The notes below the pieces were generated by a model that worked only from the letters and a program-made list of their open reading frames with translations, ran no database searches and was not told where the DNA came from. 64,000 nucleotides of DNA, taken from Lentinus brumalis (lineage: Eukaryota > Basidiomycota > Agaricomycetes > Polyporales > Polyporaceae). The stretch is taken from assembly GCA_001792895.1 (NCBI GenBank), contig MARA01000006.1, positions 1,116,001 through 1,180,000 on the forward strand, read 5' to 3'. A program made the position numbers and the translations under genes. Numbering within the stretch: the stretch's first letter is position 1; each line of letters begins with the position of its first letter. Below, in pieces: positions 1,081 to 30,501 of this stretch.

Positions 1081-2397
1081 CTACGCCTGCGGAGTAGGGA
1101 GCGCGGGACGACGAGTGAGCAATAACGGCACTGTACGGAAGGAGACGTGGTGTAGGTCCTTGAAGATGTTCACGAGTATGTTGTCCTTCCGCTCTACGAG
1201 CCGTTCTCGGAGCTTCCAGCCGGACAGCTTGGACAGGATCTCCTTAAAAGACGCGACGACATCGTCCATCGTGGGGCGCTTGCTTGGGTCGTCTTGAACC
1301 ATGGTGGCGATGAGTGGCTCCATGAAGTTAAAGTTCGTGTATTCCTACGAAGCATCGAGCATCATGAGTTTGGGAGAGGTTGATGATGTGCACGTATACA
1401 TACCTGCAAGAAGTACTCCCGGACGAAATTCCCCATGTAGTATATATCGGTATGGAAGGGATTGCGCGGTATAGTCCGATCCTGCTGGAACTCGGGAACA
1501 GTTCTGTCGCCACCGAAGATCGGAATCTCGAGCGGGTTGGTCTCTTCCGCACTGTACCGCGTCGACAGCCCAAAGTCCGTGATATAGTACTTGACGGGGT
1601 GGGCGGTACGTGAACGCGGAGTAAGCCAACGCTTCATGTCGCGCGACATCTCCGGCGACTGCGGATGAAACGAATCTGGCAAGATGGGCTGGGAATCCAT
1701 CATCACGTTTAATTTAGAGATATCCCTGACAAAAAGTATCAATATGAGGAATATGAGCACGGCGACGCACAGAAAGACACACCGATGCGCGACGCGGTGT
1801 TCGTGCATGAACTGTAAGCCCTGCAGATGCATGCGTGCGAAGTTAGCGGATCGCTCGAGGTATGCATGGACATGGTCACCTCGAGCATCTGACGAAAAAG
1901 CTCCATGGCTTCTCCTACGGTCGCGAGTTTCGGGTCGTCGTATTCCCGAAGGAGCGGCATTACTATCAGCTGCACGTCCGGATCCTCCGGATCATCGAGG
2001 ACATCAAGGATGGGGCAGCAGTGGTTTCGCGGGTCCGGAGGGAGGGAAGAGAGGAAGCGCCCAATTTCGCTCTCGAAAGGATGCACGGACTTGAATATGC
2101 GTTTGATCACCACTGGGGTGCCGTCCTTCGTCCTGACAGCGTCCATGATTCTTTCAACCTATACTGATTCATTAGAGCCACAACAGCGCAGGAGGTCTCA
2201 AAACTCACAAACAAGGTGACCCCATCCTCGACATCCCAGCGGGACTTCTTGGACGCTTGCCAGGAAGGTACCCAACCGGGCCTGTATCTTGGCCGCAACT
2301 GGTACCCGGCACTGTTGAGGAACTCGTAACGGTGTGCCCAGTACACCTCCATTCCGCGCAGTCCGCCCGGAAATGGCTCGGGGTCGTCATACTTCAT
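1081..2397 (-). CDS. K1: kinase-like protein, subfamily A, paired with P1
   Basis: Protein-kinase-like gene of five exons, the plan shared by the whole family: (1) an N-terminal exon of about 65-80 aa holding FW/YW-R-x-[HY] and GYxLRPRY...W.PSW...EDG; (2) an N-lobe exon with the ATP-binding lysine (VVIKR) but no visible glycine-rich loop; (3) a 38-nt exon ending in the catalytic loop; (4) a C-lobe exon with DFGLS, a GGD..VPEF segment in place of APE, and the helix-F DIYYMGN; (5) a C-terminal exon with KRPTMDDV, ending in a PALPTP tail. Here CAT CG joins G GAT to give HRD. The start at 2397 is chosen because it matches K2 and is the first ATG in frame; the longer frame upstream begins with TTG. 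DFG is followed by LST rather than LSR. Catalytic residues are present, so activity is plausible; the substrate is unknown. Divergent from P1 by 464 bp. Confidence 0.8.
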
Positions 2398-2510
2398 GGA
2401 GACAGGGGTGTTGGTTGGGAGAGAAGGTGGAGGTCGGGGGCTGCGGCGCGAAGTCAAGGAGCATGTTCATGGACCCTGGGAACACAGGGCGCCTGGGTCC
2501 CTTGTCATTC

Positions 2511-2524
2511 TCCCACGTCACGTC
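2511..2524 (+). promoter_or_regulatory. CACGT-type element in the K1/P1 divergent promoter
   Basis: TCCCACGTCACGTC, identical to the site at 6765-6778 and the reverse complement of 14965-14978. It lies about 114 bp upstream of the K1 start. ACGT cores of this kind are bound by bZIP or bHLH factors; which one acts here is unknown. Confidence 0.5.
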
Positions 2525-2861
2525 TCCCGTCTCCTCCGCGTCTCCTTACGTACCTTGCCTTGAACCTGATGCGGATGCTGGGCCCAGTGGGTGCTCTGTG
2601 GGACTGTGGTTGCCTCGCCTGCTGGATTCTTCCTAGACTCATGACGGCGTCTTAGCTCCTCAACCGCGGAAACGGGCGGTGCTTCCTGAGATCGTTCGCC
2701 CCTGCTATTGTAAGTACCTTTGCTGGCATATTCGCCGACAACTTTACGTCCGGGCGATAAGTAGCCACCTCGAGCCTCATAAGTGCTGGGCTCTCGGCGG
2801 CTGCCTCATTGCCCTTCTTCTTCTCATCCTACGAAGTCCCGGCGACTTCGACTTTGTCCCC

Positions 2862-3864
2862 ATGGCAGAGACAGCTAAAGCCTTTGCTCCCGCAAACCTC
2901 TTCGCAGCGCAAGACGCTTCGGTGAGTTTCATCCGACCTCGAGTATCGCACCTTCTCATGAACGTATGCTGCGTCAGAAACATCTCTATGCTGACCGCAT
3001 CTTGACCGCAACCCGTGCTTTTTATTGGGTTTGGCCGATCAAGAAATTCATCCCTTCGTATCAAGTGCACAAGGGCCGTTCTTATCAACAGGAAGGACAG
3101 GTCATCCTCGAGCGTGCGGAACAGAGCGATCCCAGGTTCAAAGAGGGACCGGCTGAAAGTTTGCGCCAGGAGCAGGCTCGGTGCGTCCACAACCTCGATA
3201 CAATGAAGTACCGCTTACCCCTTCCCTCCGATAGTGTTGTACAGGACCTACAGGATATGTATCAGAACCCAGAGCTCATCAGTGTAACGGCCTCCCGCCG
3301 TTATAAGCGCCGCGCCCGAAGGACGAGGAACAACATTGTCGTGCGTCAATAGCTGCTGGCATCTGTTCTATACTCACAACTGACCCTTCATACAGGTATC
3401 ATCGGAAGCTTTCGGAGCAATGGGGATGTACCGCATACCAGGCGGAGCCAGAGACGACACCGGTATGCGTGAGTACGCCCTCGGTCCAACAGAGCGTATA
3501 GGCGTACTCAACATCTTCCCCCTAGCTCTATCGATTACGACTATGATAACTACCTCTACATCTCAGGAGCGGCCGCCGATGCATCCCATCATAGAGCCTA
3601 GGGCTCCTGCATCGGAGACACACTTGCGTAAGTACTGTGTTCGCTTCCCTTGTTCCCCGTATGTTCATTGACTGTCGTACAGTACCGCGCCTCGAGGTTC
3701 CGAAGACCGACCCTACCCCTGCCGTCCAGAATACTATCGCGTGGCAGTTGGCTCAGCTCTCAATCTCCCAAGAGGTTCCAGAGGAGTCTGCAGCTCCTCC
3801 CGAAGGGTCCGACGACGAGCCCCTCTGCCCGGGGCCTTCGAGTGCTATTCCAGTCGCGGCGTGA
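2862..3864 (+). CDS. P1: partner-family protein paired with K1
   Basis: Not a family I recognise. My model has six exons: 2862-2921, 2978-3180, 3235-3340, 3396-3468, 3526-3627 and 3683-3864. It totals 726 nt (241 aa), with intron phases 0,2,0,1,1. Exons 2-3 encode a charged, probably helical core with WPIKKF..SYQVHKGRSY, then a basic stretch rich in Arg. Exons 4-6 are Pro/Ser/acidic and look disordered (SSEAF, IIEPRAP), ending in PVAA. No signal peptide or membrane segment is seen. P2 gives exactly the same length and phases. The constant divergent placement next to a kinase suggests a substrate, regulator or antagonist of K1; this is inference. Confidence 0.65.
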
Positions 3865-5302
3865 CTAGGTTTGGTTCTCTATCGCTCCTCAGCGGCCTGT
3901 GTCGAATCAAACCGATAAAGTATATCTATCTTGTATGCTAGCCCTTCTCAAGGTGGACTCTGGACTCTGGACTGTGACACGCTCCCGCTCTTTGCATTCC
4001 GCTCATTCTTACCTCTGTATCTCTGTGAAATGTCTCGAAGACCGCCTTGACGGAATACCACGCTCATTGAACGCACCCACAACGTATCCGCGCCCATGTA
4101 GCGGCAGTACCGAGACCAATCCGATGCACAGGGCCGGCACTGGAGCCGCCGCGCCCTGACAGTGCATAAGTTTTCGTTTCCGCGTGAAAAGAATCTCTAT
4201 CGACAAAAGAAGCTTCACCTATGAGGCAATCGACGGCGATCAACAGCCTTGTCTTTCTGTCCTGGTGTCGCTTACCAACCATACGGCTTGAAGTACCCAC
4301 GACTAGGCCACCGGCATCTCCTGGGCGCGATGCGCCCTCCCAAGAACCACTTCCGACTGCAAGGAAGCGCTACTCTTCCCTGCAAGTGCCGTGCGTTCTC
4401 GACCTACATAGCATCATGACTGACCTCTTCACAGAAGTCCGGTTTACCCGCATGAGCGCAAGCTTCGAGCCGCCGTGGCCCCTCCGCGGGTATTCGCAAA
4501 CAGCTGCCGGACAACCCAGACGGTGCCATGCGTCCTCATGTCCGGTATGCATCATTGTCTTTCCTGACCGTCTGAAACGGGCCCGAAGACGCGTAGCTGC
4601 CAGACTTCGGGACTCGGGAGGGCCTCGTGCACATGAACCTGATGTCACTGTACGAAACCAGTGCTCATTTGCAAGTCCAGTCAACGTGTATGGAAGCACG
4701 AGGTTGCAGCCAGTAGCCGGAGAGAAGCTTCCAATCAATGCTCGTCTGTCGGGATGACTACCATACGGCGCGGCAAGGACCTGCACAAAGACCCCAACAA
4801 GGTCGGGAGTCGCATATGGGCATGTGTAGAACCGGAGCTAATCCTGTATGGGAGCATGACTGACAGCGGCACCGTGACGGGAGACCGGGTTAATTCAGGC
4901 GCGGCCGTGGTCTTTGTTTTCTCTGTTCGGGTGCGAAGACTCGACGAACCTTCGCAAGATACGACCATTGACCTTGCCGAATCCGAGCGCGAACTAGGCT
5001 GATACAGTTGTAGTGGAGCCTCTCCGCGACAACATGATGATCCATGGAGCTCGGAGGCCATCCCATTGCGCGAGGCTTCTCGCAATGTACCTATCAAACG
5101 ACGTCAACTGCCTAACAGACGACACCACACTAATCCGAATTATACCGATGTGTTCCATAGATGCGACGAGAACAAATGCAAGGCAAGATACTTAACAGCT
5201 ATATCAACGGTGACGAGTGTGGGCAGGAATAACGCAAGATCCAACGACAGATGACCAGAATACAACGGACATGAAGCGACAAAGCGAGAGAGCACTGCTC
5301 AA
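3865..5302. repeat. 3' flank of P1 / K2; conserved non-coding half of the tandem duplication
   Basis: No convincing gene. The stretches near 4539-4600 and 4780-4960 align by eye with 8682-8740 and 8930-9070, the equivalent flank of P2. They share CATC.TCTTTCCTGACCGTCTG-like and CGGGAGACCGG blocks. Open frames here are not conserved between the two copies, so I treat it as duplicated flank. Confidence 0.45.
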
Positions 5303-6623
5303 CTATGCTTTTGGAGAAGGGAGCGCGGGGCGACGGGTCACCCAGAACGGCACTGTACGGAGGGAAACGTGGTGCAGGTCCTTCAAGAAGTTCACCGCTG
5401 CACTATCCTGTCGCTCGACGAGCCGTTCTCGGAGTTTGCAGCTCGACAGCTTGGACAGAATCTCCTTGAATGACGCGACGACCTCATCCATGGTGGGGCG
5501 TTTACTTGGATCGTCCTGCACCATGCGAGCAATCAGCGGCTCCATGAACGCCATATTCGAGTAAACCTTGGAGTAGGCGCTCGCGTCAATGTACAGGACG
5601 ACGTAGATGACGGCGTGATGACACACCTTCAGAAAGTCCTGCCGGATGAAGTTGCCCATGTAGTAGATATCGGTGTGGAAGGGATTGCGGGGAGTCTGTC
5701 GGTCCTTCTGAAACTCCGGGACGGACTTGTCGCCTCCAAAGATCGGGACCTCGAGGGGGTTTGTCTCGTCCGGGCTGTAGCGCCTAGAGAGGCCAAAGTC
5801 GGTGATGTAGTACTTTACAGGATGGGCGGTACGTGAACGCGGCGACACCCAGCGCTTGAAATCCCGCGACATACGGATTGACTGAGGGTGGAACGAAGAC
5901 GGGAGAATGGGCGTCGAGTCCATCATCACGTTTAGCTTCGAGATATCCCTATAAACGTCGCCGTTACTGGATTACGCTGACGTAGAGAAGGACAAAGCCG
6001 AACCGATGTGCTACGTGCTGCTCGTGAATGAATTGGAGACACTAGGCAGATGTGTGGAGTTAGAGAGTGTTTGACGCGAAAATGCACAGAGCTACCTCCA
6101 GTGCTTGACGGAAAAGCTCCATGGCTTCTCCTACAGTGGCGAGTTTGGGCTCGTAGTACCGTCGGAGCAGCGGCATCACGATGAGTTGTACGTCGGAATC
6201 CTCAGGGTCGTCGAGCACGTCGAGAACCGGACAACAATGGTTCCGAGGGTCCGAAGTCAAAGGGGTAGATGAGAGGAAGCGCCCTATCTCGCTTTCGGAG
6301 GGGTGCACGGGCTTCAGTATGCGTTTGATCGTGACCGGGGTGCTGTCCTTCGTTCTGACAGCATCGATGACTCTCTCCACCTGCGCGAACAGGTCAGTGT
6401 CATGACATAAGTGTATTGGGTAGAGACACACCGGCGGGCGTACTCCATCCTCGCACTTAAATCGAGACTTCTTGGATGCCTGCCATGAAGGTATCCAGTC
6501 CGGCTTGTACCTCGGCCTCAGCTGGTATCCGACAGTGTGTAGCCAGTTGTAACGGTCTCTCCAGTAGACCTCCAGTCCAGAGAGCCCGCCAGGAAATGGC
6601 TCTTCACATTCGGCATAGTTCAT
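5303..6623 (-). CDS. K2: kinase-like protein, subfamily A, paired with P2
   Basis: Closest relative of K1 in the window. The start at 6623 is the first ATG in the frame that reads NYAECEEPFPGG...YWRDRYNWL. Visible parts: VTIKR lysine; DPRNHCCPVLDV and LIVMPLL hinge; the 38-nt exon, here CLQFIHEQHVAHR, whose usual first Gly is Cys; HRD rebuilt as CAT CG + G GAT; DFGLSRRYS; GGDKSVPEF; DIYYMGNF; KRPTMDEV; and a PALPSPKA end. The intron after the HR codon starts with an unusual GTTCGG donor. It lies in the second unit of the K1/P1-K2/P2 tandem duplication and is divergent from P2 by 485 bp. All catalytic residues are present. Confidence 0.8.
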
Positions 6624-6764
6624 GGAGGAGCGGATGCGGCGGCGGAGGTGGTGGAGGTCAAGAACATCGGGAAGCTCGCGACGAGAACGTTCAACGCGTT
6701 CATGATGGCCTGGGAACAGAGAGCGTCTATGGCCTGTCACACGTGGTTACAATTGTTGGGACTT

Positions 6765-6778
6765 TCCCACGTCACGTC
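6765..6778 (+). promoter_or_regulatory. CACGT-type element in the K2/P2 divergent promoter
   Basis: TCCCACGTCACGTC followed by AC, identical over 14 bp to the K1/P1 site. It lies about 142 bp upstream of the K2 start. Confidence 0.5.
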
Positions 6779-7108
6779 ACAGAACCTCCTCCGCGTCTGC
6801 GCCGCTGCCTTTGAACCCGATCTGGATGGTGCCCCCGAGTCTGTGGGACTGTGGTTGCCTTGCCTGCTGCATCCCGGGCCTTCCTCGACTCGTAACAGCG
6901 TCTTCGCACATCATCCCTGCCGAACCACGAGGCCGTGCTCCCGGAGATCTTGGCCCTGTTGTTGTACTCCTGCTGGCATGGTCGCCGACATATTTACGTC
7001 CGGGCGATAGCTCAGAGCCCTGGCCTCTTAAACCTCGAGACTTCGGCAGCAGCATCCTCACGCTTCTAACATTTCTTTCTGCGGGATCCTGGAGACCCCT
7101 GTGATCGC

Positions 7109-8133
7109 ATGGCTGAGGCCAACATAGGAGCTACTCCGGTGAGTCTTGTTGAACCTGGCGACGACCCAACCGGGCTTTCCTCATCATCACCGTCATCATT
7201 TTCTGTATAATCTATTTAGAAGAGGCTCGGTGGCGATCGCATTTTGGCTGTGGACGAGCCAGCCGGTCACTGGTTCTGGCCTTTGAAGCAACGCATCGCC
7301 AAATACCAAGCCTACAAAGGCCGTTTATATTTGCGCAAAGGGCAGGTTATCCTTGAAGACGCCATGAGGAAGAGTGTGCAGTTCCGGGAGGGTCCCGCTC
7401 CAGAATTGAGAAAGGCCATTGAAAGGTGAGTGCTCACGATCACTTCAATGCACAGGTCGCTCACCTCACTGACTCACAAGGCATGCGCGTGACCTGGAAG
7501 CGATGTATCAGAGCTCGGACTTGAGTGCGTCGACTCTCCGGCGTTGGAAACATGGTACACGAGAGAATATGGTCAACATCGTCGTAAGTTCACCCGCGCT
7601 TTCGATCTGTACTGGAGCCGCGAGTGAGCGTGATGATTTTGACCAGCTTTCATCCGAGGCGATCAGTGCAAGCGACGACGACTACGTGCCTGTTGGATCC
7701 GTAGATGATAGCGGAATGCGTGAGTATGCTTTGATATATTTGTACTGCCGTGCTCACCCTGTAGTTCAGCCTCGGCTTTCGCGTCTAGGTATCACTCACC
7801 GGTAATGCTATCACCATGGCACTCGCCTCCTGCGGCACCAAGACACGACATATTAGAGCCAGTTAGGCGGCCCACATCTCTAGGCAAGTACCCATGCGGA
7901 TGACAATCTCGGCTACATTGACTGGTCGTACAGGAGGACTCGCCCTTCAGCTGCAGCAGCTTGACCCGTTCAACGCCCCAGAGAACACCGTAGGAATTGA
8001 GATGGTCCAGCTCGATGCCGCGACGCACGGCGCCGAGGAGCCTCCCGCAGTCCCTCCAGGAGTGCATGACGAAGACGCTCATTACAACCACGGACTCCTC
8101 TCCCCGTCAGGCTCTACTGTAATTGCCGCGTGA
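7109..8133 (+). CDS. P2: partner-family protein paired with K2
   Basis: Unrecognised family. Six exons by my splice model: 7109-7138, 7220-7425, 7481-7583, 7647-7719, 7770-7883 and 7934-8133. They sum to 726 nt (241 aa), with phases 0,2,0,1,1, as in P1. The core reads WFWPLKQRIAKYQAYKGRLY then GQVILED, close to P1. The C-terminal half is acidic and proline-rich (SSEAISASDDD, ILEPVRRP) and ends VIAA. The fifth intron appears to use a GC donor (TCTAG|GCAAGT), which keeps the frame and aligns with the GT donor of P1. The first exon is only ten codons, beginning MAEAN. Confidence 0.65.
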
Positions 8134-9715
8134 CCGACGGCCTCGGCTTCACTCGTGTGTCGTATGTCTCGGCTTGTACATGTATCTCCTGTGCTGCTCA
8201 CCGTGCTGTTGACTCCCCTGCGTTCATGCGTACCGTGCCGGTCACTGGTGTTGCGAGTCTGACTCGCCTGTCATTATCTATGTCTTCATATGGAGCATGA
8301 GACAGCGGCGTTCCCGGATGCCCGCGTCAGCTGTACCCGCTTCGCGACACTCGTCTAGGACTCATCGCCATGTACGATTTGCCTGCGCAAGGGCAATAAC
8401 AATCGGGACAGCCGCATATCCTCCGCACGAGAGCATCAGAAGCTAGTGGGTGACCGCTGCTATGCACGTCAATGTGCTCTTGGCTCTTGTACTTTGGTTC
8501 AGTGGGGTTGCTCACCGACCGCCGATTGATTAGCCATTTGGAGAACCTCACGACTAGTGCTTGCATGCAACGCACTACGACACGTCACCATGCTGATTAC
8601 CCTCACGCACGCTGCACATACGCGACACTACCGATCCATCAGCCTGCCAAGCCTCGTGTGCCCGCACCAAATTCGCACATCACTCCGGTACGCATCATCG
8701 TCTCTTCTGGTCGTCTGAAACAGTCTCGGTACGAACGTCCGGAGCTACTTGAAGTGGAGGGCCGATGACTCCTTCATGCAAGATACCGCTCTTGTATCTA
8801 TTCCAGGGTCTTGTCTGGCGTCATGCTGACCAGTTGACCGGTACAACAGCAGCGGCTTCTTTGGGGTGGTTACAATGTCAAGTACCACAGCCATCGTCAG
8901 CCGCCGGCGACCAGAACAATATGTCTGGACAAGGTCCCACATATCGCATATGGACATGAGGGGAACCAGAGCTGTTCCGGTATGAGAGCTTGCTCGACCG
9001 TGACTGACAGCGGCACAATACAGTAACGGGAGACCGGGACATGTCGTCGTGGTATTTGTTTTCGTTCGGTGGTAACGACAATTCAATTTGCCCAGTTCGG
9101 CCATGAACTAGCTCGGTTCTAGCTTGGCCAGGTAATCAATACCAACTTATGTTGCCAGCCCTATCTTGCGTCGTAGGTGTCGATAGTCTAGGCAGGAAGC
9201 ACATGACCGTCTCAGAATGACCGGACGGACTCGCATGCCGTCAACCAGCATGACTGCATCACATCAGTGCGTCAGAAACGACGCCGCTAAGGAACAAAAG
9301 CCATACACGAGCGAACATTCGCGGAAGTCGCAACGCATTGCACTCCCCTAGTGCATCCTTGACTATTCATGTCTTCAGGAAAGACGATGAGGCGAATCAG
9401 AGCAACCGGGACAGTCTGCGACGCCGCTCATATGTACATTCTGTGTGTGTTCCGTCTCTTCCCAGACCACATCGGAGCCATATATCAGGAATTCAGTGCG
9501 CCTGCTCCCACGCACACGCAACCCGGAGACTTGACGCAACAAGGGGGAGGGGGGACTTGAAGAGGCAACAGGGAAGCCAGCGTATTTGCGCATGCGAGAT
9601 TGATTATCCGAGGAGCATAGAGAGCGTTACAGCAAAGCAAGATTAAAAGAGCACTATCACAGGAGAGCAACGTCCACGTAGCAAGCAGCCAGATACCAGA
9701 AATGATGGGCGACAG
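8134..9715. repeat. Flank between the 3' ends of P2 and P3
   Basis: No gene supported. About 8560-9110 resembles 4400-5020 behind P1, the other copy of the tandem unit. The remainder (9110-9715) has only short unsupported frames. Confidence 0.4.
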
Positions 9716-10655
9716 TCATACAACGGGGAGGTCCGGGTAATTGAGAAGAGGACGGGTAGACGAGGTATCATCGTCGGGGTATTCGCGTGGCGACATAGAC
9801 TGCGCGTCGGTGTCTGGAAGTGACGACAGCATTGAAGAAGCTGTGGAAGCTCGAGTTCAGCGAATCCTGGGATCGGTAGGATGCGATGAACGACTGACCA
9901 TCCGTCAATGCGCTTATGTCTGGGAGCTGAGGGCGCGACTCGATGACAACTCTCGTCACAGGAGCCGCTGAATCTGTTGGGGATAGCGGCGGCGGTGTGA
10001 CCTTTGCTTCTAGCAAGTCGAGATAAGTATCAGCGCAAAACGGGGATGTCGAAGATTGCTAGCAGCTCACTCTGGATTTGGACCGTCTTTCTGCGTGCCT
10101 CCTGCCTCACCGTGTTCGATGTTTGCTATTCGCGCGGCATTGATTCAGTGCAGCGTCGTCGCAGAAGAAAAATGCTAGGTTACCTTGGCCAGCGCGCAGG
10201 TGTTTCTTGCGACACGTTTGACATCAGTGGACTCCGATAGCGGCCAGTCCCGTTGACCAAGGAGCTTGTTGATTGTCTCACAGACCCTTCGCAGGCCTGT
10301 CAACGGACCGACACCGTCGACATACTGAGAGTGGTCGACTCACCTCCCGATGTCGTTCACAAGATACGCATACTCAGGCTTGGACCTCCACTCAGGACTC
10401 TCTCCGATTTCGTCAATCAACTCCTCCGCCAGTGCGAAATACTCCATAGCACGGGCAAGCTGATAGTCCGGGCTGAGAAGTTCGAAGGGATGCGGGCGGC
10501 CTTTTGGTGGTACGGGCAGTCTACACCCTGTGATCAACGTTGACCCCTTGACATCTAGGGCAGCCTCAGTCTCTTCCTGCAACTCTACCGTTAGTATTCG
10601 AAACCTATTTTACTCAGTAATTGCCACATACCGTGATTTCCGGAGGCGCTGGCAT
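9716..10655 (-). CDS. P3: partner-family protein paired with K3
   Basis: Unrecognised partner family. Exons, read on the minus strand: 10655-10632, 10576-10344, 10286-10184, 10125-10071, 10009-9899 and 9840-9716. They total 651 nt (216 aa), with phases 0,2,0,1,1. It starts MPAPPEIT. Exon 2 holds GRPHPFELLSPDYQLARAM and a helical stretch with WRSKPEY. Exon 3 is 103 nt, the same size as in P2 and P5. The C-terminal part is Pro/Ser-rich with VVIESRPQLP, matching IIEPRAP of P1, and ends YPDLPVV. The acceptor of exon 3 is AAG, as in P2. Divergent from K3 by 443 bp. Confidence 0.65.
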
Positions 10656-11098
10656 TGGGGCAGAGAGAGAGGAGGCCGTGATAGAGTGGGAGCAATGGGA
10701 GGGTAGTACTTAGTGTTGCTCTCCCGAGTCTCCTGATAGGGTTTTATGACGGGCCATCCAGATTGTCCACAGTGCGCGTTCGGAGAGTATTCGAAGGACA
10801 AGGACTGCCTGTGAAAGATACCATGCCGCTCGTGCTACGGCAGAGACAGCGAAGCAACCAGGATGCTGGGCGGTCTGAGCAGTGAGCGCGGCAATGTTCG
10901 CGAGCGGCGACTCTCACGACGGCACACAATTGGCCGAATTTGGCTCAAGGTGTCCGACAGACCAGCGTGGGAGAGTGGCAATGATGGTTCGGCCACGTCG
11001 GGCGCCCACAGGTTTCGCGTGAACTGACGTTCGCACCCGTACGACATGTTCGTCTCTTCCCCCACCTTCTCTGTGCATCACGCCGTTCCCCTACCGTG

Positions 11099-12407
11099 AT
11101 GAGCACTAAACAGGGCGCGGAATCTGTGGACAAGGAGTTCTTGCCAGGGGAGGAATACTGGCGCGATAACTACGACTGGCTTCTGCAATCTGGATACCAA
11201 CTGCGCCCGCGCTACCGTCCTGGATGGGTCCCCTCATGGAAAGGAACGAATAAGATTCCACTGTTCTGCGAGGACGGCTTGTATCCGAAGGTGTGTACTA
11301 GCGTCTGCGGTACGGAGCCACTATGCTCATCACATACAGCGTGCAGCATTACTCGACGCCGTCAGAGTGAAGGACGGTGAGATGGTAGTCTTCAAGCGCA
11401 TCTCCAAGTCTGTACATCCACACGAAGTGGAAATAGGACGCTTCTTGACGTCTCCTCCCCTCTCTGACGATCCCCGCAACCATTGCTGTCCCATACTGGA
11501 GGTGCTGCAAGATCCTCGAGACCCCGATATTCAGATTATCGTCATGCCGTATCTCAGGTCCTACAATGAGCCGAAATTCGCCACAGTGGGAGAAGCTGTC
11601 GAGTTTTTCAGACAGGCTTTCGAGGTGAGTGAGTGACGATGTCCTAGCACGCATTCGTACGATTGACCGAACAAACCAGGGTCTTCACTTCATGCACGAA
11701 CATCACGTCGCGCACCGGTTCGCAGCCATTCAGTTTTCAAATCGACGAACCGCTGACCGGCTTTGTAGAGATGCAATGTCGCTAAACATACTCATGGATG
11801 GGAGACCCCTCTTACCTGACTTGTGGCACTTCGTTTCACCATGGCGGACGCGGGACGACAAGAAGTTTGTGCGTCCAGGCTCTCGCACCGCGCATCCGGT
11901 CAAGTATTACTGGGCCGATTTCGGTCTGTCGCGCAGATACGATCCAGACGATCCCAATCCCCTGGAACATCCTATCCTTGGAGGAGACAAGTCTGTACCC
12001 GAGTTCGATGTGGATCCTGTGGTTCCGTGCAATCCTTTTCCGACTGACGTCTACTACGTGGGTAACTTGATCAGGGAGGACTTCTTGAAGGTTCGGTATT
12101 CCCTGAGGCGCGCTGTAGTCTTTGCACTGACTCGGTGGCCCAGGTGTTCAAGAATCTCACCTTCATGGAACCTCTGGTCACACGCATGGTCGATGCCGAC
12201 CCGTCCAAGCGTCCTACTATGGAAGAAGTGGTGTCCGAGTTCAAGAAGATATCCTCCCAACTGTCCGGGTGTCAGCTGCGGTCCCGGCTCCTCGAGTTCC
12301 GCGACACGCCGTTCTCGAACTTTTTGAAGACCGTCTACCACACATCTACGCGCAGCATACCGCACTTCATCATGCGTCGCTCCCCTTTGCCCACTCCGAA
12401 GGCATGA
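11099..12407 (+). CDS. K3: kinase-like protein, subfamily A, paired with P3
   Basis: Five-exon kinase-like gene starting MSTKQGAESVDKEF. Features in order: YWRDNYDWLLQSGYQLRPRY with SWKGTNK and CEDG; VVFKR with the lysine; DPRNHCCPILEV; VMPYL hinge; micro-exon GLHFMHEHHVAHR; HRD formed as CG + A GAT (HRDAMSLN); YYWADFGLSRRY; GGDKSVPEF; DVYYVGNLIRED; KRPTMEEV; and an SPLPTPKA end. No breaks seen. The 38-nt exon is followed by an intron with a GTTCGC donor. The tail after the kinase fold carries the family's usual FLKTVYH segment. Confidence 0.8.
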
Positions 12408-13520
12408 CCGGACATACCCTCCTTTGTCGTCTTTCCGTCATGCTTTCAGTGCCATCGCTTTCCTCCTCGCTATCGTACGACCGCTTGTGTACTGCTGTCA
12501 TCTACATCTCTGCTACTTATCTAGGATCCTTGGGAACATCGTTACGTTTGCATACCCTGCCTCAGGCTGTTATCCCTGCGCTGGCTTGGTGATGACCGCT
12601 CTGAAGCGCTGATCCCAAAGCTCAGCCTTCTGTCTGGCGGCGGAGGACAGCGCGACATGCGCCGTCGCCCCAAACGCCCTCTGGGCGGCTACCGCTATCA
12701 TGGGTACACGTGCGTGCGAAAACCACCCCGGCGGCGGCCGGCGTACCGGCGTCGGTTGCAGTACTGCAGAACCGGCGCAATATTGTGCGTCGTACGCCGC
12801 ATCGCAGTAACTTAACGATGTCGACAATCATGCTCAGCTTCCCGGGAGAGAACAATGCATGAGGGCACCTGCCAGTGGGCTTGAGCCAAGCTCGAGGAAG
12901 GGGGGTTAAGTGCCATTCCGGTGGTTATGCCAGCGAGGACAATGCAGCGGATCGGCCGTTATTGCGAGTACAAGGGTGCGGACGCGCAGGGCAGGTCTAA
13001 TACATACGCATCAGGTTATGCACCCGTACTCATTCTTATTGGCCTCTACTTCATCGATGCGTCGTGGCACATGTATGTGTCAGATTGTGCGGCACGTGTG
13101 CATCTCACTGAAGTCCCTCCCAGGCGACGATCTGGCCAGTGCAATAGGCAATTCTTACCGAATCTTTGCGCCCAGTGCACAGGAGTTTCATGCATTCGCA
13201 CCCCTGATCACCTCTGGCGACCTGGATACAAGCAGTGATATTGTACTGTCTCTAACCGCTAGCATGCGCTTGCCGCGAATAGAACAGACGACAGCTCATA
13301 GGGACGACTTTGTTCCTGACCGGGCAAATTCGTTCTCATTTAGTGGGGTTAGTGCCACGCATCTGATGCGCTGACAGGCCCAGAAGGCGTTCTGAGTGTG
13401 GCGCTGCCGCCGCGGTCACTTGGGCTGCAAGGCTAGGTAAGACGAGAGCGATTCGACAGCAATTACACAACACGATAGATACTACATCCGGAGAGGATAC
13501 ATGCATACTGAAGGTCCGAG
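12408..13520. other. Intergenic stretch between K3 and P4 3' ends
   Basis: The longest open frame (12910-13374, plus) begins with GTG and has low-complexity composition without a known domain. Nothing here could be supported as a gene. It lies between two convergent module ends. Confidence 0.4.
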
Positions 13521-14626
13521 TCAAATAATGGGCAGGGACGCAACACGACGGAGGCCTCGAGGATGCTGCTCCTCGACCCACACCGTCGCCTTGAGTATGG
13601 CCATTGCTATCGATTCCCCGGTAGCAGGGGCCGCATCCGGCGGCTGAGCGTCATCATACTCTTCAATGGTCTCGGGTTCCTGAGCGACAGATGATGTGGC
13701 CGCTTTCGGAGTGTCGGTGCCGCCATCAGCGAAGGGGTCTTGAGAGTCTGATGAACAGATCAGTCCCGCTTTCGACATAGTCATGCGAATTTCCACTCAC
13801 CAGTGATTAGTGGGAGCATAGTAGGTCCGCAAGCAGGCGTCCTTGACTCTATTATGACCTTGTTCCGCAAAGGTGAGGGTCTCCTGCTCCCGAACGAAGT
13901 AGCACTTCGTGGAGGACTAGTAGGTGCTGTTCATCCGTGAGCGGCGGACGGGGAGCGACGACTATGCGGTGACTCACCAGAATTCTTTGCGGCAACCGAC
14001 AGGATGCCGAGTTTACGTACCAGAAATTGTGCCTTCGCTTGCTGCGACGAGTTCTGCGGCACAGTAGGTATCCGTACAAGCTGGAGTAAGAATGAAAGGA
14101 CGAGACTCACCTCAGCATCCACCATGAAAGTGCGCACGTCTCGTTTCCAGTCTCTACATTCCTCCAGATCGAGACGTTGTCGGATTTCCGCAAGATCGTG
14201 CACGAAGCTGGGCAGGAGCGTCAGCATGAGATATTGAACGAGATAAGATATCACTGACATTGCGCTACTTTGCACGAGCTCGACGACTTCTTTCTTATCC
14301 CTCCAGTCGACGAAGTTCTCGACGACAAATTGTATATCCGCAAACCCCTTCTCCCAGTACTTCAGACCTCGATAGATATGGTGTTGTGGGTATCTTCTCC
14401 GGAGGGGGCCCAGCCAACGGCTGACAGGGCGAGCTACGCTACTTGCTGAAAGGACTACCTTTTGAACAGTCTCGAAGCTGTCCTGTGGGTTGATTGTCGC
14501 GACTGTCGGCTCAATCTGCGCAGCAGAAATGAGGGGAGTCGTGGTGGATGATGCAGAGGGAGCAATCTCAGAAGGGGCCTGCTGAGTGCTAACGCGTGAG
14601 GAGAGAAGAGAGATGCGGCGAGGCAT
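13521..14626 (-). CDS. P4: partner-family protein paired with K4, longest member
   Basis: Unrecognised partner family. Exons: 14626-14259, 14207-14111, 14053-13978, 13926-13801 and 13747-13521; 894 nt (297 aa). Exon phases after the first are 2,0,1,1, as in the other partners, but the family's first phase-0 intron is missing. The N-terminal 75 residues are a Ser/Thr/Pro-rich extension running straight into the core RWLGPLRRRYPQHHIYRGL. The C-terminal part has VIIESRTPACGP, an acidic middle (EPETIEEYDDAQ), and an unusual basic end (EEQHPRGLRRVASLPII) unlike the AA ends of P1, P2 and P5. The longer frame upstream begins with TTG, so I start at the ATG of MPRRIS. Divergent from K4 by 509 bp. Confidence 0.6.
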
Positions 14627-14964
14627 GGGGAAAGGAAACAAGCAGCAGCTGGCAACAACGGAGGGACTTTGCTAACAGGGCCAGTGGTTAGCTCACGCTG
14701 GTTGCGCGCATGGTCAGTTCATATACTTCAGTCAAGACGTAATATGAATGCGCCTCGGAGGTTTACAGAACAAAAGTTGCCTGAGCAGGCAGTTCGGACG
14801 GGCGTAGCGACGACGAAGAGGAAGCCATGGCGACGGAGGGTATCCATCTGTGCTGATAGCACTGGGCAGTAGCATGAGTACTTTGCCGACCCACTTGTGC
14901 ACAGAACCTGGTTGGCGGCGTATCTGGACTCGGAAATGGTTCAAGGCAACGAGCGGCAAAGCGT

Positions 14965-14978
14965 GACGTGACGTGGGA
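14965..14978 (-). promoter_or_regulatory. CACGT-type element in the P4/K4 divergent promoter
   Basis: GACGTGACGTGGGA on the plus strand, the exact reverse complement of the K1 and K2 sites. Because K4 points the other way, its orientation relative to the kinase is the same. It lies about 158 bp upstream of the K4 start. Confidence 0.5.
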
Positions 14979-15135
14979 GTCCCTCACACGTGGTCATCGC
15001 CCTGCGCGCTCGCGCACGCGGCACAACGAGCGCGACGCTCCGCCTGTTCTGATCCATGACTATTGTCTTCGACCTCATCCCTTCCTCCCCGACACCCTCG
15101 CCTCCCCCAAGTTTGCGTCCTTGAGCTTGACGTAA

Positions 15136-16439
15136 ATGGATACCCGGGAGGAGCCAGGTGTGCTCACAGATGGCGAGACATACTGGCGGGAACGGTACGA
15201 ATGGCTCAAACATACTGGTTATACCCTCCGACCGCGTTACGACCCCAAGTGGGAACCTTCGTGGAAACATACCGGGAAATCTCGCTTTCAAGCTGAAGAT
15301 GGCATCCGCGCGAAGGTCGGGGCCCCCTTCTCTGCTCGACGCCTCTGTGCTCACTGACACGCCCTTGCAGACATCTAAGGTCTTGGACGCTGTCAGAGCC
15401 AAGGATGGGCAGATAGTGGTCATTAAACATGAGTCGAAGTCGATACACCCCCATGAGTGCGACATTGCTGTCTTTCTCTCCTCTCCTCCGCTCTCGACCG
15501 ACCCTCGAAATCACTGCTGTCCCATCCTCGAGATTATCGACGATCCCTACGATGCAGACGAGTGTCTGATGGTTATGCCTCTCCTGCGGAAGTATAATGA
15601 CCCGAAATTTGCCACCGTCGGCGAAGCTGTGGAATTCTTTCGTCAGGCATTTGAGGTTGGCACTTGCTTTCATTCCTGGTCGTCCATCGAGTGCACTTAC
15701 ACCTCCTCCAGGGCGTCCAGTTCATGCATGAGCATCACGTCGCTCACCGGTTCGTCTGCGCGTATTCTGTCTGAACCATGCATTCATCTTCTTTAGTGAC
15801 ATATCGCGGCTGAATATCATGATGGACCCCAAGCCAATTCTACCAGAGCTGTTCCATCCACAGCGACCATGGCGCATGCTCGACGGTAGGAGAGAAGTAC
15901 GGCCCTACACGCGTACCGCACGTCCTGTCAAGTACTACTTTATGGACTTCGGGTTGTCCAGGCGTTATAGCCCGGAGGAGACCAATCCGCTCGAAGAACC
16001 TATCATAGGCGGCGACAAGACAGTCCCGGAGTTCCAGAACGATCCCGAGACGCCCCGCAACCCCTTCCACACGGATGTCTACTACATGGGTAACCTCGTA
16101 CGTCGAGACTTCTGCGAGGTGCGTACAACTGTGTTATGGGTATTCGCGTTCGGTGGTGGTCTCACATGTCGTCAGATCTACACGAACTTCAAGTTCATGA
16201 ATTCATTGATTGCGCGCATGGTTCAGGACGAGCCGAGCAAGCGTCCGACAATGGATGAGGTTGTATCGGAGTTCGCGGCTATTAGGGCTAAGCTCTCCTG
16301 CTGGAAGCTGCGCGAGCGGCTGGTCGAGAGACGAGACTCAGTCTTTATGAACGTCCTGAAGGACGTCCACCACGTATCCACCCGTGCTGTTCCGAACCTT
16401 CTTTCCCTCCGCAAACCCATACCCACCCCGTCGCCGTAA
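15136..16439 (+). CDS. K4: kinase-like protein, subfamily A, paired with P4
   Basis: Starts MDTREEPGVLTDGETYWR; the ATG matches the family's start region. N-terminal exon GYTLRPRYDPKWEPSW and EDG; N-lobe IVVIKHES with the lysine; DPRNHCCPILEI; micro-exon GVQFMHEHHVAHR; HRD as CG + T GAC; DISRLNIMMD; YYFMDFGLSRRYS; GGDKTVPEF; DVYYMGNLVRRDF; KRPTMDEV; and a KPIPTPSP end. The long open frame starting at 15158 is a shadow that merges two exons. No frame breaks were found, so it is predicted intact. Its 3' end faces K5 across about 590 bp. Confidence 0.8.
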
Positions 16440-17032
16440 CTCCTTCCCCTTCATTTCTGTCCTTGGATTGTTCTGCTACCTAGTCTCTCGGATGCGGTCT
16501 GCGGTCTGTGTTCCGAGTCGCTGCTTTGCTTTGCTGTCGCACGTTATCTACCTCCGCATCTGCTGTCCGAATACTTGCATATTAGTCACGTCTACATTTA
16601 TCCATGTGTCCTACGTACCGCCTCATCCGGTTCAACTTCTCCCCACAGCAGTCCAGCCGCGTCATGCTGAGCGGTTTGCATGATACGGAGCTCCTCGCGG
16701 TGATTACTGAAGACCCATCAACGCGACAGCGGAAGTCTGCGAGCCAAACAACACCGCACTCAGGCACGAGCCAAGGCTCGCAAACAGAACCCAGCTTGTC
16801 TCGGTCGCGCATCTCTTATATACACGCAATAAGGGTGACGATGAGTGTACTCAGTACAGTAGTATAATGATACAACGAAGTGGCCGTAGTGGGCGTATGA
16901 GTGTATGGTATCCGAATAAACTTTACAAAAGCTGTTGCCAGTTGGGCGACGACATAAGCAGAACTAGTCAGTGGACACGGGTCCTGTTCGTGAGCAGGGA
17001 CAAGGTATCGTTTGAGGAGAAGGTATGTTCAG
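16440..17032. other. Intergenic stretch between convergent K4 and K5
   Basis: A terminator/3'-UTR interval shared by two convergent kinases. No conserved frame, repeat or RNA gene seen. Confidence 0.4.
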
Positions 17033-18383
17033 CTACTCAGGTGCCGGACCGTAGGAATGCGAACACTCTGCCTTAGGCGTAGGGAGGGGTGAATTGGATG
17101 CGAGCAGGTCGGGAATGGTGCGCGAGGTGACATGATGCACACCCTTCAAGAAGTTCATGAATGCCCCGTCTTTCCGCTCCACTAGCCGCTGACGGAGTCG
17201 GCAACTAAGCTTCGGCACGATCCTGTAGAACTCCGAGACGACCTCCTTTATTGTAGGCCGCTTCTCAGGGTCCTCGCTGCACATGCGCGCAACCAAAGGG
17301 TCCATGAACGCAAGATTCTTAAATACCTGGAGAAGAGTCAATGACTCATTAGCATTCAGCGCGGGTGACATGCGAGTCTTCACTTACCTGGAGAAAATCC
17401 TCCCTGATCAAGTTGCCTAGGTTATAGACGTCCACGCGGAAAGGGTTACAAGGAGAATGAGGGTCCTTGTTGTACTCCGGCACCGTCCTGTCGCCGCCGA
17501 AGATCGGTACTGCAAGTGGATTCGTGTCCTCCGGATCGAATCGTCTCGAAAGACCGAAGTCTGTCCAGTAGTATTTGACGGGTCGAGCTGTGCGCGAGTA
17601 CGGGTGGACGTGGCCCTTGAAGTCCCTGGTCTTCAATTGCACAGCTGGATGGTACAGGTTGGGAAACAAGGGTTTCGGGTCCATCATGACATTGAGCGTC
17701 ATGATATCTCTGAACAAAGTATCAGCGCACGGGTGAAGAATATCGCACTGCATGACGCACCTATGTGCGACGTGATGGTCGTGCATGAACTGTAATCCCT
17801 GGTATCTGATCAGAATCGCGGCCAGCATGTAGATTGGTGACTCATACCTCGAGTGCTTGCCGAAAAAATTCAACAGCCTCTCCGACGGTACTGAACTTCG
17901 GGTCATTGTACTGCCTGAGAAATGACATTACGACGAGTTGAATGTCGGGATCGCGCGGGTCCTGTAGCACGTCGAGAATAGGGCAGCAGTGATTTCGAGG
18001 GTCGTCAGACAGCGGGGAGGAAGTTAGGTAGCGTCCAATGTCCACTTCGTACGGATGGACAGACTTCGGAATTTGCTTGATCACGACCACTCTTCCGTCA
18101 CTCGTCCGAACGGCGTCGATGAGCTGGGTGTGCTTGGGGCATGTGAGCGATACTCGCGCGTTTCGTCAATGTAAGCGGGACGTACAAGAAGCGCTACCCC
18201 GTCCTCGCATGAGATGATGAGCTTGTTGGTTCCCTTCCAAGACGGGACCCATTCCGGATGGTAGCGTGGACGTAGCTCATAACCCGACTGTCGTAGCCAG
18301 TCGTGTCTTTCTCGCCAGAATATCTCCCCTTCGGTCAGGAGTCCTCTCTCGGAGCGTTTGGAGCGTGACGGGTTTGAAACCAT
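17033..18383 (-). CDS. K5: kinase-like protein, subfamily A, paired with P5
   Basis: Starts MVSNPSRSKRSERGLLTEG. Order of motifs: FWRERHDWLRQSGYELRPRY and SWKGTNK; VVVIKQ lysine; DPRNHCCPILDV; VVMSFLRQY hinge; micro-exon GLQFMHDHHVAHR, where the Arg codon is AG|A rather than CG|N; DIMTLNVMMD; YYWTDFGLSRRFD; GGDRTVPEY; DVYNLGNLIRED; and KRPTIKEV. The C-terminus reads SPLPTPKA and then continues 11 more residues (ECSHSYGPAPE) because the stop codon used by its relatives is absent. Divergent from P5 by 490 bp, using the ATG I propose for P5. Confidence 0.8.
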
Positions 18384-18496
18384 GCAGTTGTAAGGCGTTT
18401 GCGGAGAGCTGAGCAGGGGCGGGCGGAAGGGGGCGTAGGTGCAACATGAAGCGCGGTCTGTTCGGCATCACTTGTGGGCGCTCAGAACCACAATAC

Positions 18497-18541
18497 CTCC
18501 CACGTGGCACAACAAAGGCACCGCCGTCACGTCACGTCACG
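18497..18541 (+). promoter_or_regulatory. CACGT-type elements in the K5/P5 divergent promoter
   Basis: Two blocks: CTCCCACGTGGCAC at 18497-18510 (a palindromic CACGTG core, about 114 bp upstream of K5), and CGTCACGTCACGTCACG at 18525-18541, three overlapping TCACG repeats. They resemble the sites of K1, K2 and K4 but are not identical. Confidence 0.4.
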
Positions 18542-18873
18542 CCGACTTCTGCTTGCCTTCAGCCACCTCCAGGCATCTGTGAGACCAGGCGCAACGCTGC
18601 CAGCGCGCCGGCTCCTTGAGTCGGCAACCTCACGCACTCTATGAGCGATCTATCTCAGGCAGCTTTTGTTCTTCGGACGGCTCCGTCCGCGTTTACGTCT
18701 ACGATGTACAGGATGGCCTGAACAAACCTCTGAAGTACCAGGCCCACGAGAGCTCGCAGTCTCTGCGCTGGCGAACGACGTTCGTTGTACCTTTTTGCAC
18801 CTCTCTGGTCCTAGACCCCTTGCGCGGACGCAGGCTGCGCCGAGTCCGTCGTAAGTACTTCAAGCTCACGTGC

Positions 18874-19812
18874 ATGCAAGCTTCATTGGTACGCGGTGTA
18901 GTCCCGAGGCTCGACACAATGGTGGAGTCTGATGTAGAACCTGCAGGTGTCGAGCACTCAGCCTGAGGCTGAGCTCCCCGTTGGCCGCCTGCCCAAGCCA
19001 CCCCATAAATTCCTCGGGCCTCTCAAGCACTTCACCGCGAACTATCAACTTTACGCCGCTCAACAATACCATGAGGAGGGTCAGGATCTTGTGAAGGGAC
19101 TTGGGGAGGAACATCCTGGATGGAAGGAGAAGCCGCAGTTCCGCATGTTAGTAACCAATGGCAACATGTACGTGGACTTCCGTGTAAGCTCTCGAAGTTT
19201 TACTGAAGGGTCCTTGCGATCATATCACTCCAGGGTAGCATCGTATCTCGAAGATGCGTTCGATCAACGCAAATGGGACCGCGAGAAGAACCGCATAATC
19301 AAGCACGAAGCTCGCAAGTATCGTACGTCCGCATATGTGAGAAGTTCGCCAGGTCTGTTCGGACTATGGTCTCTGATTTCCCGTGTCCGCAGCGGTCATC
19401 GAAGACCGCAGAACGGGAGTACGTCAACGATATGGTGCCCAGATTGTCAGAGACAGGTGAGCACAAGTCTGTTTCGACTTGCAATCTCTCTCTTCGTGCC
19501 GCTCACCGCTATGAGTAGATGACGATGAACAGCACGACGTTTCGGGTCCTCCGAGCTCAGGCATTGGTCCACGGTTGAATGCTCCATTGATCGAATCGAG
19601 GGCTCCAGTGCCACCCTGTTCTACCGATTGTGCGTAGAATGGTGTCTTTCACACGGACGGGCTGATCATGTTGCGTCCAATCAGACTCCTCTGTCTTCTC
19701 TTCTGCAACATCTTCCATCCTCAGTTCGACGTCGACCGCGCCAGATCCTGAGGACAGCTCCTCTGTCCATCCGCTGTTGGACATGCCAGATCCCCTCTCC
19801 GTCCCCGCGTGA
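18874..19812 (+). CDS. P5: partner-family protein paired with K5
   Basis: Unrecognised partner family. Exons: 18874-18888, 18947-19167, 19234-19336, 19393-19456, 19519-19629 and 19685-19812; 642 nt (213 aa), phases 0,2,0,1,1. The start is the least certain part: the five-codon first exon MQASL is chosen because it gives a phase-0 intron of 58 nt like its relatives. The core reads KFLGPLKHFTANYQLYAAQQ then WKEKPQF. Exon 3 is rich in Arg/Lys. The C-terminal half has PLIESRAPVPP and ends LSVPA. Exon 3 (103 nt) and exon 5 (111 nt) have the same lengths as in P3. Confidence 0.6.
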
Positions 19813-27260: not shown

Positions 27261-28566
27261 CTAATCACGAACTCGAGCGACATCTTCCCGACGCCGGCGA
27301 AGCATCTCCTGTATCTCCAGCTTCTCGTCCTCATCAAACATATAGATAGTCTCACGGTCCCCACCATATGTCGCCTCGAGGCTCGCGAGCGACACACGGT
27401 CGTCGTCCGCGGCGTGGTCAGGCGGGTAACTCCAGTACACCTCGAAGAACTCCAGTTCGTACCCTTGATTGTACCGGCCGACGACAATCTCCGATGCTCG
27501 ACTCGGATCGTCTGTAGCGTACAAGGAAGCAGTTAATTCCACACTGATGACGGTACATGCGACTGAAAGCTTACTACTACAGGGGATCAGTCTTGCGCAG
27601 CCGAATACTAGGAGCGGACTAGTCAGTACATGCACAACTAGCGATACGAGAACGATGCGATGATACCCACAGACGATATATCCGGATACAGGCGCATCGA
27701 TTAGTTGCTCTTGTAGATTGATGGTAACAGGGACATCGGCGACTTGCAACCGCGAACCTTTGGTCAGCAAGACCAACGTCTCATGCTTTGCAGAGGACTC
27801 ACCTCCGAAATGCAGAGTGATACGCGCGCTGGTCCCAGTAAGGACAGCGACATTGTCGAAGTATGTTGTGAGGGTATCATCGATGGTCATATTAGTAGAG
27901 TTGTACGCTGTCACAGGCGTCAGCACGCCGCAAACTTGAGCCTGAACTTTGAAGACATTCGTCGCACTTACAAGGGGATTCATCGACGTCCAGTAGCTCA
28001 GCACCATGCGGTCCGTCCCCTGCTGGGGTTTGCGGCTCCGGTTGGGGATCTGGATCGTCGGCGTTATTCTGGCCCGCAGATGCAAGCGCTTCCTCGTAGA
28101 CTGCCCGAGCGGAGGCGACCTGTGCATTGCGTTCAGCAACTGATAATCGAAATCCCTCAGCACGCGTGAATTTGGACTCACCCGGGCCTCGAACAAACAT
28201 TCGTCAGTGGCACTGTGATACTCGCGCGCACGGATGATGAGCTTAATCGGCTGTCTGAAGACGTCTTTCCACTTTGTGCCAGGGATTGCAAGTTTTGCCC
28301 TGCGGGCTCTAGCGTACAGCAAATCAGCTAAGTAACCATCGAAGAGGGGGGGGGAGAGATATTGCTCACTCTTTTCGCAACTTGATGATCTTCTGCCAGT
28401 CCTCTGGCGTGATGATCGAGCCGTTCTCTTTCAGGATAGCGGCCACCTTGAGCTCCTTCTTCACTGCCCTACGTACCATGACGGAAGGGGAGAGTTGCGA
28501 GCCTACAAAGACGAGAACTGTGACTAGGGCGTTGGTGCTAGCCATTGCGGACTTGGGATCAACCAT
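27261..28566 (-). CDS. Hypothetical protein, unrecognised
   Basis: Starts MVDPKSAMASTNALVTVLVF. My model joins about five exons: 28566 to about 28369 (ends KLRKE), a second from about 28308 (ARRAKLAIPGTKWKDVF... to LFEAR near 28186), an Ala/Glu-rich exon (SVAERNAQVASARAVYEEAL, acidic, about 28160-27985), then TIDDTLTTYFDNVAVLTGTS with a beta-rich look, and a last exon GRYNQGYELEFFEVYWSY ending RREDVARVRD. Phases fit at the later junctions; the junction near 28190 is not resolved. One hydrophobic stretch near the N-terminus might be a membrane segment. No family recognised. It is the only non-kinase gene inside the subfamily-B block. Confidence 0.5.
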
Positions 28567-29102: not shown

Positions 29103-30501
29103 ATGACTTCCGCTATGGACGTACCAGGTCTTCACGAGACTGAGAAAGACGACCCGCACAAGGACCATCCTCTCTACTGGACGAACACCGAAGGCGGCCT
29201 GGTAGAAGAAGAGTTCTTCTGGAGGGAGCATCAGCAATGGCTTGCAGACCATGGGTACATGCTGCGCCCACGCTATTGCCAAGACTGGCAGCCATCGTGG
29301 CTGAAGTCGAACAAGCTGTACTTCCAGTGCGAAGATGGGAAACTCCCAATCGTAAGCTGTACTTACTTGGTACGGTGTCACATAACCGCTACTCACCGCC
29401 CACTCGCTGCAGCGTCCGAACATTATGGCTGCTACGCGAATCTCTGACGGTCGGATCGTCACTATCAAGCAGGTCGAGAAGTCTCACACTCCCTGGGAAG
29501 AGGGTGTCATACGCTTCCTCTCTAGTGATCCCCTCGCGTCCGACCCTCACAACCATTCCATCCCTCTCTACGACGTTCTCCAGTCACCTCTAGACAACAC
29601 GATAACTTTTCTGGTGATGCCGTATCTTATACGTATCCACAAACACAAGTACGCTACCGTTGGAGAGGCCCTCGAGTGCTTCCGTCAACTGTTCGAGGTA
29701 AGCCACCCGATGCCGCTTCGTTCCGCCGTTGTCTTCATCATGACTGTCCCTCTGCAGGGCCTGCAGTTTATGCACCATAACCTTGTCGCCCACTGGTAAG
29801 AGAGATCACTTTGCGTCTGCTATCGCTCATGACATTCCTACAGCGACATCAACCTGGTGAACGTCTTGATGGACCCCATCCCATTACTTTCAGAGCCCCC
29901 TCATCCTAACTTCCCGAAGCGAAGCTTCGACTTCAAACGCAAGGTTAAGGAGCACACCCGTACCGAACGTCCAACCAGGTACTACATCATCGACTTTGGT
30001 CTCTCGCGCAAGTTCTCCCCGGGACAGGAATTGATTGCGCCAGTTTCGTATGGAGGTGACAAGTCCGTCCCTGAGTACAGGGACGCCTCGCGCCGAGTGT
30101 CTAATCCGTTCGCGATCGACATATACTGCCTCGGCAGCATGATCCAAGAGTGGTTCGTGGATGTGCGTGTTCGCCTTTCGATTCTGAATTATCGGGGCTG
30201 CTGACGTCTATCGCAGAAGAGCCGCAGCCTAGATTTCCTGAAACCTCTCCTCGAAGAGATGAGGCGGAAGGTTCCTGAGGAACGGCCGACGATAGACGAG
30301 GCGTTCAAACACTTCGAAGAGCTGCGTCTATCTCTCTCCGAGTGGACGCTGCGGTCACGATATGTCTACAGAAACGAGTTCTTCCCCGGAAGGATGTACC
30401 GGGCTTGCCGCCATGTTGTTCGTACGGTGAAGTACATCCGGCGGGGACTCCCCGCCTTGCCTACACCTACTGCTGTCCCTCAACACTCCCTTCCATCGTG
30501 A
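29103..30501 (+). CDS. K11: kinase-like protein, subfamily B
   Basis: Starts MTSAMDVPGLHETEKDDPHK; a second in-frame Met follows at residue 5. Motifs: FFWREHQQWLADHGYMLRPR, CEDG; IVTIKQVEK; DPHNHSIPLYDV; VMPYLIRIHKHKY; micro-exon GLQFMHHNLVAH; HCD as CAC TG (29791-29795) + C GAC; VNVLMDPIPLL; YYIIDFGLSRKFS; GGDKSVPEY; DIYCLGSMIQEW; ERPTIDEA; tail GRMYRACRHVVRTVKYI and LPTPTAVPQHSLPS. No breaks seen. The last ~60 nt of its coding sequence and about 0.75 kb of 3' flank are present again, inverted, at 62.7-63.5 kb. Confidence 0.8.

Follow-up and report, generated by a model that had tools for sequence, protein, structure and literature searches.

Results

Kinase and partner genes

The window analyzed here is a 64 kb stretch of the Lentinus brumalis genome (contig MARA01000006.1, positions 1,116,001 to 1,180,000), which lies within a 2.35 Mb contig of a 53.4 Mb assembly, and all of the analysis was made from this one genome. 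Between positions 1081 and 19812 of the window we found five protein kinase genes (K1 to K5), each of which faces, head to head, a gene of a second family (P1 to P5) that is called its partner below. The kinase genes lie at 1081..2397 (K1, minus strand, 363 amino acids), 5303..6623 (K2, minus strand, 366 amino acids), 11099..12407 (K3, plus strand, 366 amino acids), 15136..16439 (K4, plus strand, 362 amino acids), and 17033..18383 (K5, minus strand, 378 amino acids). Introns are dense and short in this genome, and all five genes were resolved as spliced models of five exons, with the four introns of every copy in phases 0,0,2,0; K4 was built by hand, and K2, K3, K5, and K1 were modeled by spliced alignment to it.

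The partner genes, assembled by hand from reading frames and splice sites, lie at 2862..3864 (P1, plus strand, 241 amino acids), 7109..8133 (P2, plus strand, 241 amino acids), 9716..10655 (P3, minus strand, 207 amino acids), 13521..14626 (P4, minus strand, 297 amino acids), and 18874..19812 (P5, plus strand, 213 amino acids). All five frames are uninterrupted from ATG through stop. P1, P2, P3, and P5 have six exons and intron phases 0,2,0,1,1 (one intron of P2 is of the GC-AG type), and P4, which has five exons, lacks the first intron and shows phases 2,0,1,1. The second introns of P1 and P5 (54 and 66 nt) and the first of P4 (51 nt) are multiples of three and have an open frame, so that a retained intron would still be coding.

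The first-pass annotation of this DNA had described five intact head-to-head modules, 443–509 bp apart and laid out in both chromosomal orientations, and the spliced models bear out the modules and the layout alike. From K1-P1 to K5-P5 the two genes are on opposite strands with ATG-to-ATG gaps of 464, 485, 443, 509, and 490 bp, which is within the start spacing of less than 1 kb by which bidirectional pairs are recognized.

Domain content and relationships of the kinases

The lysine of the VxxK motif, the HRD motif, and the DFG motif are present in all five of K1–K5, and because these catalytic residues are retained the kinases are probably active. The general kinase profile PF00069 and the FunK1 profile PF17667 were scanned against five of our 28 kinase models, a sample drawn from the window, its flanks, and other contigs. 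All five passed PF00069 (cut-off 31.7 bits; K1 41.2, K4 42.9, B4 47.8, D45 43.0, C1 40.5), and K1, K4, D45, and C1 fell below the PF17667 cut-off of 24.1 bits (14.2, 15.5, 11.6, and 14.7, respectively; B4 was not listed). K1 also scored 23.7 bits against PF07714 (cut-off 23.1) and K4 scored 22.6. The best structure-database match of K4 was limited to the catalytic loop of ordinary kinases (E = 1.1e-4). That loop reads HRDIS in K1, K2, and K4, HRDAM in K3, and HRDIM in K5 and in a further kinase, A6.

In a tree of 26 rows, from which R5 (degenerate) and D46 (distant) were omitted, K1–K5 and A6 fell on one side of a branch with support 93/92, the nearest other row being A7. Within this A clade the K1-K2 pair was supported at 100/100, and the K3-K5 pair was weak (82/66). 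Elsewhere in the sample, HCD replaces HRD in B2–B6, which span 20345-42228, and in R1–R3; HRD is kept in C1, C2, L1, and the A type, and the models of B1 and D68a skip the catalytic-loop stretch. R5 (C93 74892-76273 in window numbering, minus strand) is fitted by the A-type template only with seven introns or gaps.

The P family

Full-length identity is 42% between P1 and P2, 32% between P3 and P5, and 16–24% in the remaining eight pairs, and ten alignment columns are invariant across the five proteins. Pairwise spliced alignments were judged against 120 random segments; P1, P2, P4, and P5 were mutually linked above the best of these segments, and P3 was linked through P5 only. By these alignments and by their matching introns P1–P5 are one family. 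Nothing scored above a Pfam cut-off for P1, P3, P4, and P5, and P2 was scanned only in the form of the open reading frames (ORFs) of the window and its kin. Apart from the five genes themselves, genome searches with a P1 frame and the full P2–P5 gave weak matches on other contigs and nothing better (E ≥ 0.099), and the best structure-database match with P had an E value of 0.96. An AlphaFold model of the P5 domain was mostly helical, with a mean predicted local distance difference test score of 53 and a predicted template modeling score of 0.31, from a query that read through an intron; it was not used for fold comparison. The 19-residue hydropathy maximum in P is 0.4–1.0, with no N-terminal hydrophobic stretch, and the partner of the A-type modules looks soluble by this measure.

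Parallel divergence of the two genes

The matrices of amino acid-changing divergence (dN) of the kinases and of the partners correlate at r = 0.82, a value reached by one of 120 labelings, the true one. This congruence, with the same head-to-head layout in both orientations, supports the earlier proposal that the pairs were amplified as a unit. A five-row tree of P was too divergent for use; its long branches meet. In all ten pairwise comparisons dN was higher for P than for K, by 2.3–3.7 fold. Silent sites are near saturation, with proportions of silent differences of 0.61–0.81 for K and 0.70–0.88 for P, and because both genes have nevertheless stayed open, the K-P pairs are old and have been retained. 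The ratio of dN to silent divergence (dN/dS) was about 0.12 for K1-K2 and 0.26 for P1-P2, values that are rough because of the same near-saturation, and positive selection was not indicated.

A sixth module

A profile scan of the regions upstream of all 28 kinase models found P at K1–K5, a relic of P at A6, and P nowhere else. A6 is a kinase of the A clade (spliced model, 34359..35604, minus strand) whose model requires a fifth intron, so that its N-lobe may be damaged. The relic, divergent to A6 at about 36033..36173 (plus strand), is most like P5 (42.6% over 47 residues; E = 1.3e-5, computed against the five-protein P set), and its spliced score (z = 7.2) lies above all 120 controls. Five of 600 control segments scored as high as the relic (8.0), and all five contained the relic itself. 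A sixth module, as identified by these alignments, survives as the A6 kinase and its P relic. A6 and A7 are themselves head to head, with the relic between them (35640-36567). Directly after the relic, at 36159-36308 (plus strand), is a fragment resembling CDP-diacylglycerol synthase (PF01148, E = 9.7e-9), and an ORF about 40 kb off and outside the window (C93 76531-77616 in window numbering, minus strand) is 85% alike over 40 amino acids to the ORF that holds relic and fragment.

A motif in the gaps

Exact copies of CACGTCACGTC occur four times in the 64 kb, all inside K-P gaps and oriented alike with respect to their pair: at 2514..2524 (plus strand; 348 bp from the P1 ATG and 117 bp from the K1 ATG), 6768..6778 (plus strand; 341 bp from P2, 145 bp from K2), 14965..14975 (minus strand; 349 bp from P4, 161 bp from K4), and 18528..18538 (plus strand; 346 bp from P5, 145 bp from K5). 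Neither 100 kb of sequence on other contigs nor the stretches flanking the window held an exact copy, and ACGTCACG was absent within 700 bp upstream of the 23 other kinase models. A 10-mer was common to four of the five gaps, a result equaled by none of 1000 controls in which the K1-P1 and K2-P2 gaps were real and three random segments completed each set. The shorter CGTGGGA was found in all five gaps. As for the shared promoter suggested in the first-pass annotation, the near-fixed distance of the motif from the P start and the 10-mer amount to an indication of one.

Other partner families

All-against-all comparison of the non-kinase frames in the examined stretches revealed two further families. 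Q occupies the divergent slot of D45 (C45) and of D51a and D51b (C51), with z scores of 19–40 against 120 controls, blastp E values between 1e-20 and 2e-11 (set of six proteins), and a second exon of 145 bp in all three copies. T occupies the divergent slot of B4, a B-type kinase of the window, and of R1, a C-type kinase just outside it (z = 21–25), and its second exon is 127 bp in both copies. Kinase B4, whose model lacks the first residues, is at 29172..30471 on the plus strand, and the first three exons of its T-family partner, modeled by hand, are at 27972..28566 on the minus strand. A first intron of phase 2 was recovered in all five traced spliced alignments of Q and T. Unlike P, both families have an N-terminal hydrophobic stretch (19-residue hydropathy 1.4–2.4). 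No nuclease or toxin domain was matched in P, Q, or T, and the Q and T promoters had no 9-mer common to three of their five gaps. Genome searches with Q45 (six matches) and with the B4 partner (four matches) returned these kinase-linked places and no others.

Several candidates were rejected. A P2-like match upstream of D45 (E = 0.005) had a stop in frame and low complexity; Q45 is the actual partner of that kinase. A putative D68a partner scored 53, above the highest null score (45), yet tracing gave a short, weak alignment (score 20). Homologous intron places across P, Q, and T were also set aside: the P phases were known when the models were set by hand, and spliced alignment recovered the first phase-2 intron of Q and T alone. 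P3 against B4 scored 51, where the null reached 45; its traced alignment was poor, although hhalign returned the same helix at E = 0.14. D68b faces a frame of similar look without relatives, which we count as a candidate only. With the D68b candidate, 12 of the 28 kinase models have a partner, relic, or candidate (K1–K5, A6, B4, R1, D45, D51a, D51b, and D68b).

These families alter part of what had first been proposed. Confinement of the pairing to one clade holds for the P family, which accompanies K1–K5 and, as a relic, A6, but not for pairing in general. Likewise, B and C kinases do lack P, but B4 and R1 each face a small T gene, and with D45, D51a, and D51b also facing small genes, pairing is not special to the A type. 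Partners scattered without kinases, the finding named beforehand as adverse to a dedicated pairing, did not appear; in this genome the significant P, Q, and T matches all adjoin a kinase.

Discussion

We favor, with about as much confidence as doubt, the reading that these genes constitute an old two-gene module of a kinase and its dedicated regulator, anchor, or substrate. Kinase and small partner would be transcribed apart from one common control region, and the pair would have been duplicated as one unit. As a regulatory or anchoring subunit, the partner would bind its own kinase and set where or when that kinase acts; alternatively, it may be the kinase's dedicated substrate. A small partner that evolves roughly threefold faster than the kinase it faces, occupies a fixed divergent slot, and has no significant kinase-free match is what we would expect of such a regulator, anchor, or substrate. 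In the D-type modules an anchoring role for Q is plausible because of its N-terminal hydrophobic segment.

Several results weigh against this two-gene module. For 16 of the 28 kinase models a partner was not found, so that kinases can exist alone. The partner models were set by hand. Comparison of P, Q, and T by hhalign gave E values of 0.14–0.4, which are not significant as evidence that the families are related. The motif CACGTCACGTC is missing from the K3-P3 gap and from the A6 gap, and when one mismatch was allowed the window held five copies, a number matched by nine of 100 shuffles. Genome-wide, CCCACGTCACGTC has seven copies, three of them in the window, and its reversed control has three.

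The leading alternative, which we consider unlikely, is that the two genes share a bidirectional promoter and serve the same process while their proteins never touch. The motif between the two genes, whose spacing to the start of P is constant, favors this alternative. However, the parallel divergence of K and P goes beyond shared regulation, even though common history also yields a correlation, and so does the replacement of the partner by different families beside other kinases.

Common history could also be the whole explanation, one divergent pair having been duplicated repeatedly without its neighbors ever separating. We consider this doubtful. K and P trees would agree through descent alone, and each copied unit would inherit the head-to-head layout; unit duplication by itself would keep the neighbors side by side. 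Nevertheless, both genes are open in five of six modules despite near-saturated synonymous sites, the pair has survived inversions within the cluster, and homologous pairs are found on other contigs (C45 and C51).

A broader proposal, that the whole kinase family is an ancestral two-component recognition system, seems to us improbable. In it every kinase subfamily would have a private, rapidly replaced partner in one and the same divergent slot (a soluble P for the A type, an N-terminally hydrophobic Q for the D type, and T for the B and C types), P, Q, and T would form one superfamily that has diverged past recognition, and the pair would act in self-recognition or killer-protector conflict. 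The simpler form of that idea, in which one member of a pair harms cells that lack the other, we regard as very improbable as a description of these modules. Fast partner evolution would fit it, as would a genome in which kinases occur without partners and partners never without a kinase, the pattern expected if the partner is harmful, and resistance to the fungal killer SPOK is known to require a kinase domain (PMC6660238). But P, Q, and T are without a nuclease or toxin domain, the P1-P2 dN/dS of about 0.26, at saturated dS, does not indicate positive selection, and many copies coexist. That the P frames are not genes at all is scarcely credible: they lack a Pfam family, but matching introns and phases recur in five copies, residues are conserved, and the frames are open despite saturated silent sites.

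The HD1 and HD2 mating genes of basidiomycetes form a head-to-head pair with a shared upstream region, are duplicated as a unit, and diverge fast. The K-P modules are likewise head to head, duplicated together, and fast diverging, but no homeodomain was found in K1, K4, P1, P3, P4, or P5, and here a kinase stands opposite a family without a Pfam match.

Among kinases, FunK1 is a fungal family expanded by lineage-specific duplication in which a serine replaces the catalytic-loop lysine (PMC3203195). At that position, lysine in most protein kinases, K1, K2, and K4 have serine (HRDIS), and K3, K5, and A6 read HRDAM, HRDIM, and HRDIM. K1, K4, D45, and C1 pass PF00069 and fail PF17667 (11.6–15.5 bits against 24.1); the genome has at least 138 PF17667 matches and, among the matches listed, none is in the window. 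FslK kinases of Agaricomycetes are a lineage that mushroom-forming fungi have kept and enlarged, with species-specific duplications, and the accessible portion of that report mentions no paired partner gene (PMC3937382). Spok joins nuclease and kinase domains in one protein, the kinase domain being part of fungal killer resistance (PMC6660238), whereas the kinases here are separate proteins (362–378 amino acids), and neither P nor Q matched a nuclease. In the titles and abstracts of open-licence literature on divergent or head-to-head kinase pairs in basidiomycetes or Agaricomycetes and on kinase expansions, we did not recognize the K-P system.

The roles of the expanded kinase families of mushroom-forming fungi are said to need experiments (PMC3937382, PMC3203195). 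If a kinase family has a dedicated partner gene, each kinase comes with a candidate binding protein or substrate, the promoter motif is testable, and paired, relic, and unpaired kinases can be contrasted in one cluster.

Other features of the window

Kinases B6 and R3 have a repeated block of about 2 kb in their upstream regions (38323-40522 for B6; C93 70764-72808, window numbering, for R3); many of its ORFs are 80–100% alike, and it contains an open frame of 404 amino acids. Further repeats lie downstream of kinase genes, where 30470-31310 matches 62675-63430 and 33548-33901 matches 62147-62377, and the ORFs tried from these downstream repeats had no Pfam match. Neighboring genes of other kinds are a mevalonate diphosphate decarboxylase (54090-55196, minus strand), a gene with leucine-rich repeats and an Exo_endo_phos domain that we take to be CCR4-like (56857-59414, plus strand), and an aldo/keto reductase (59534-60388, minus strand).

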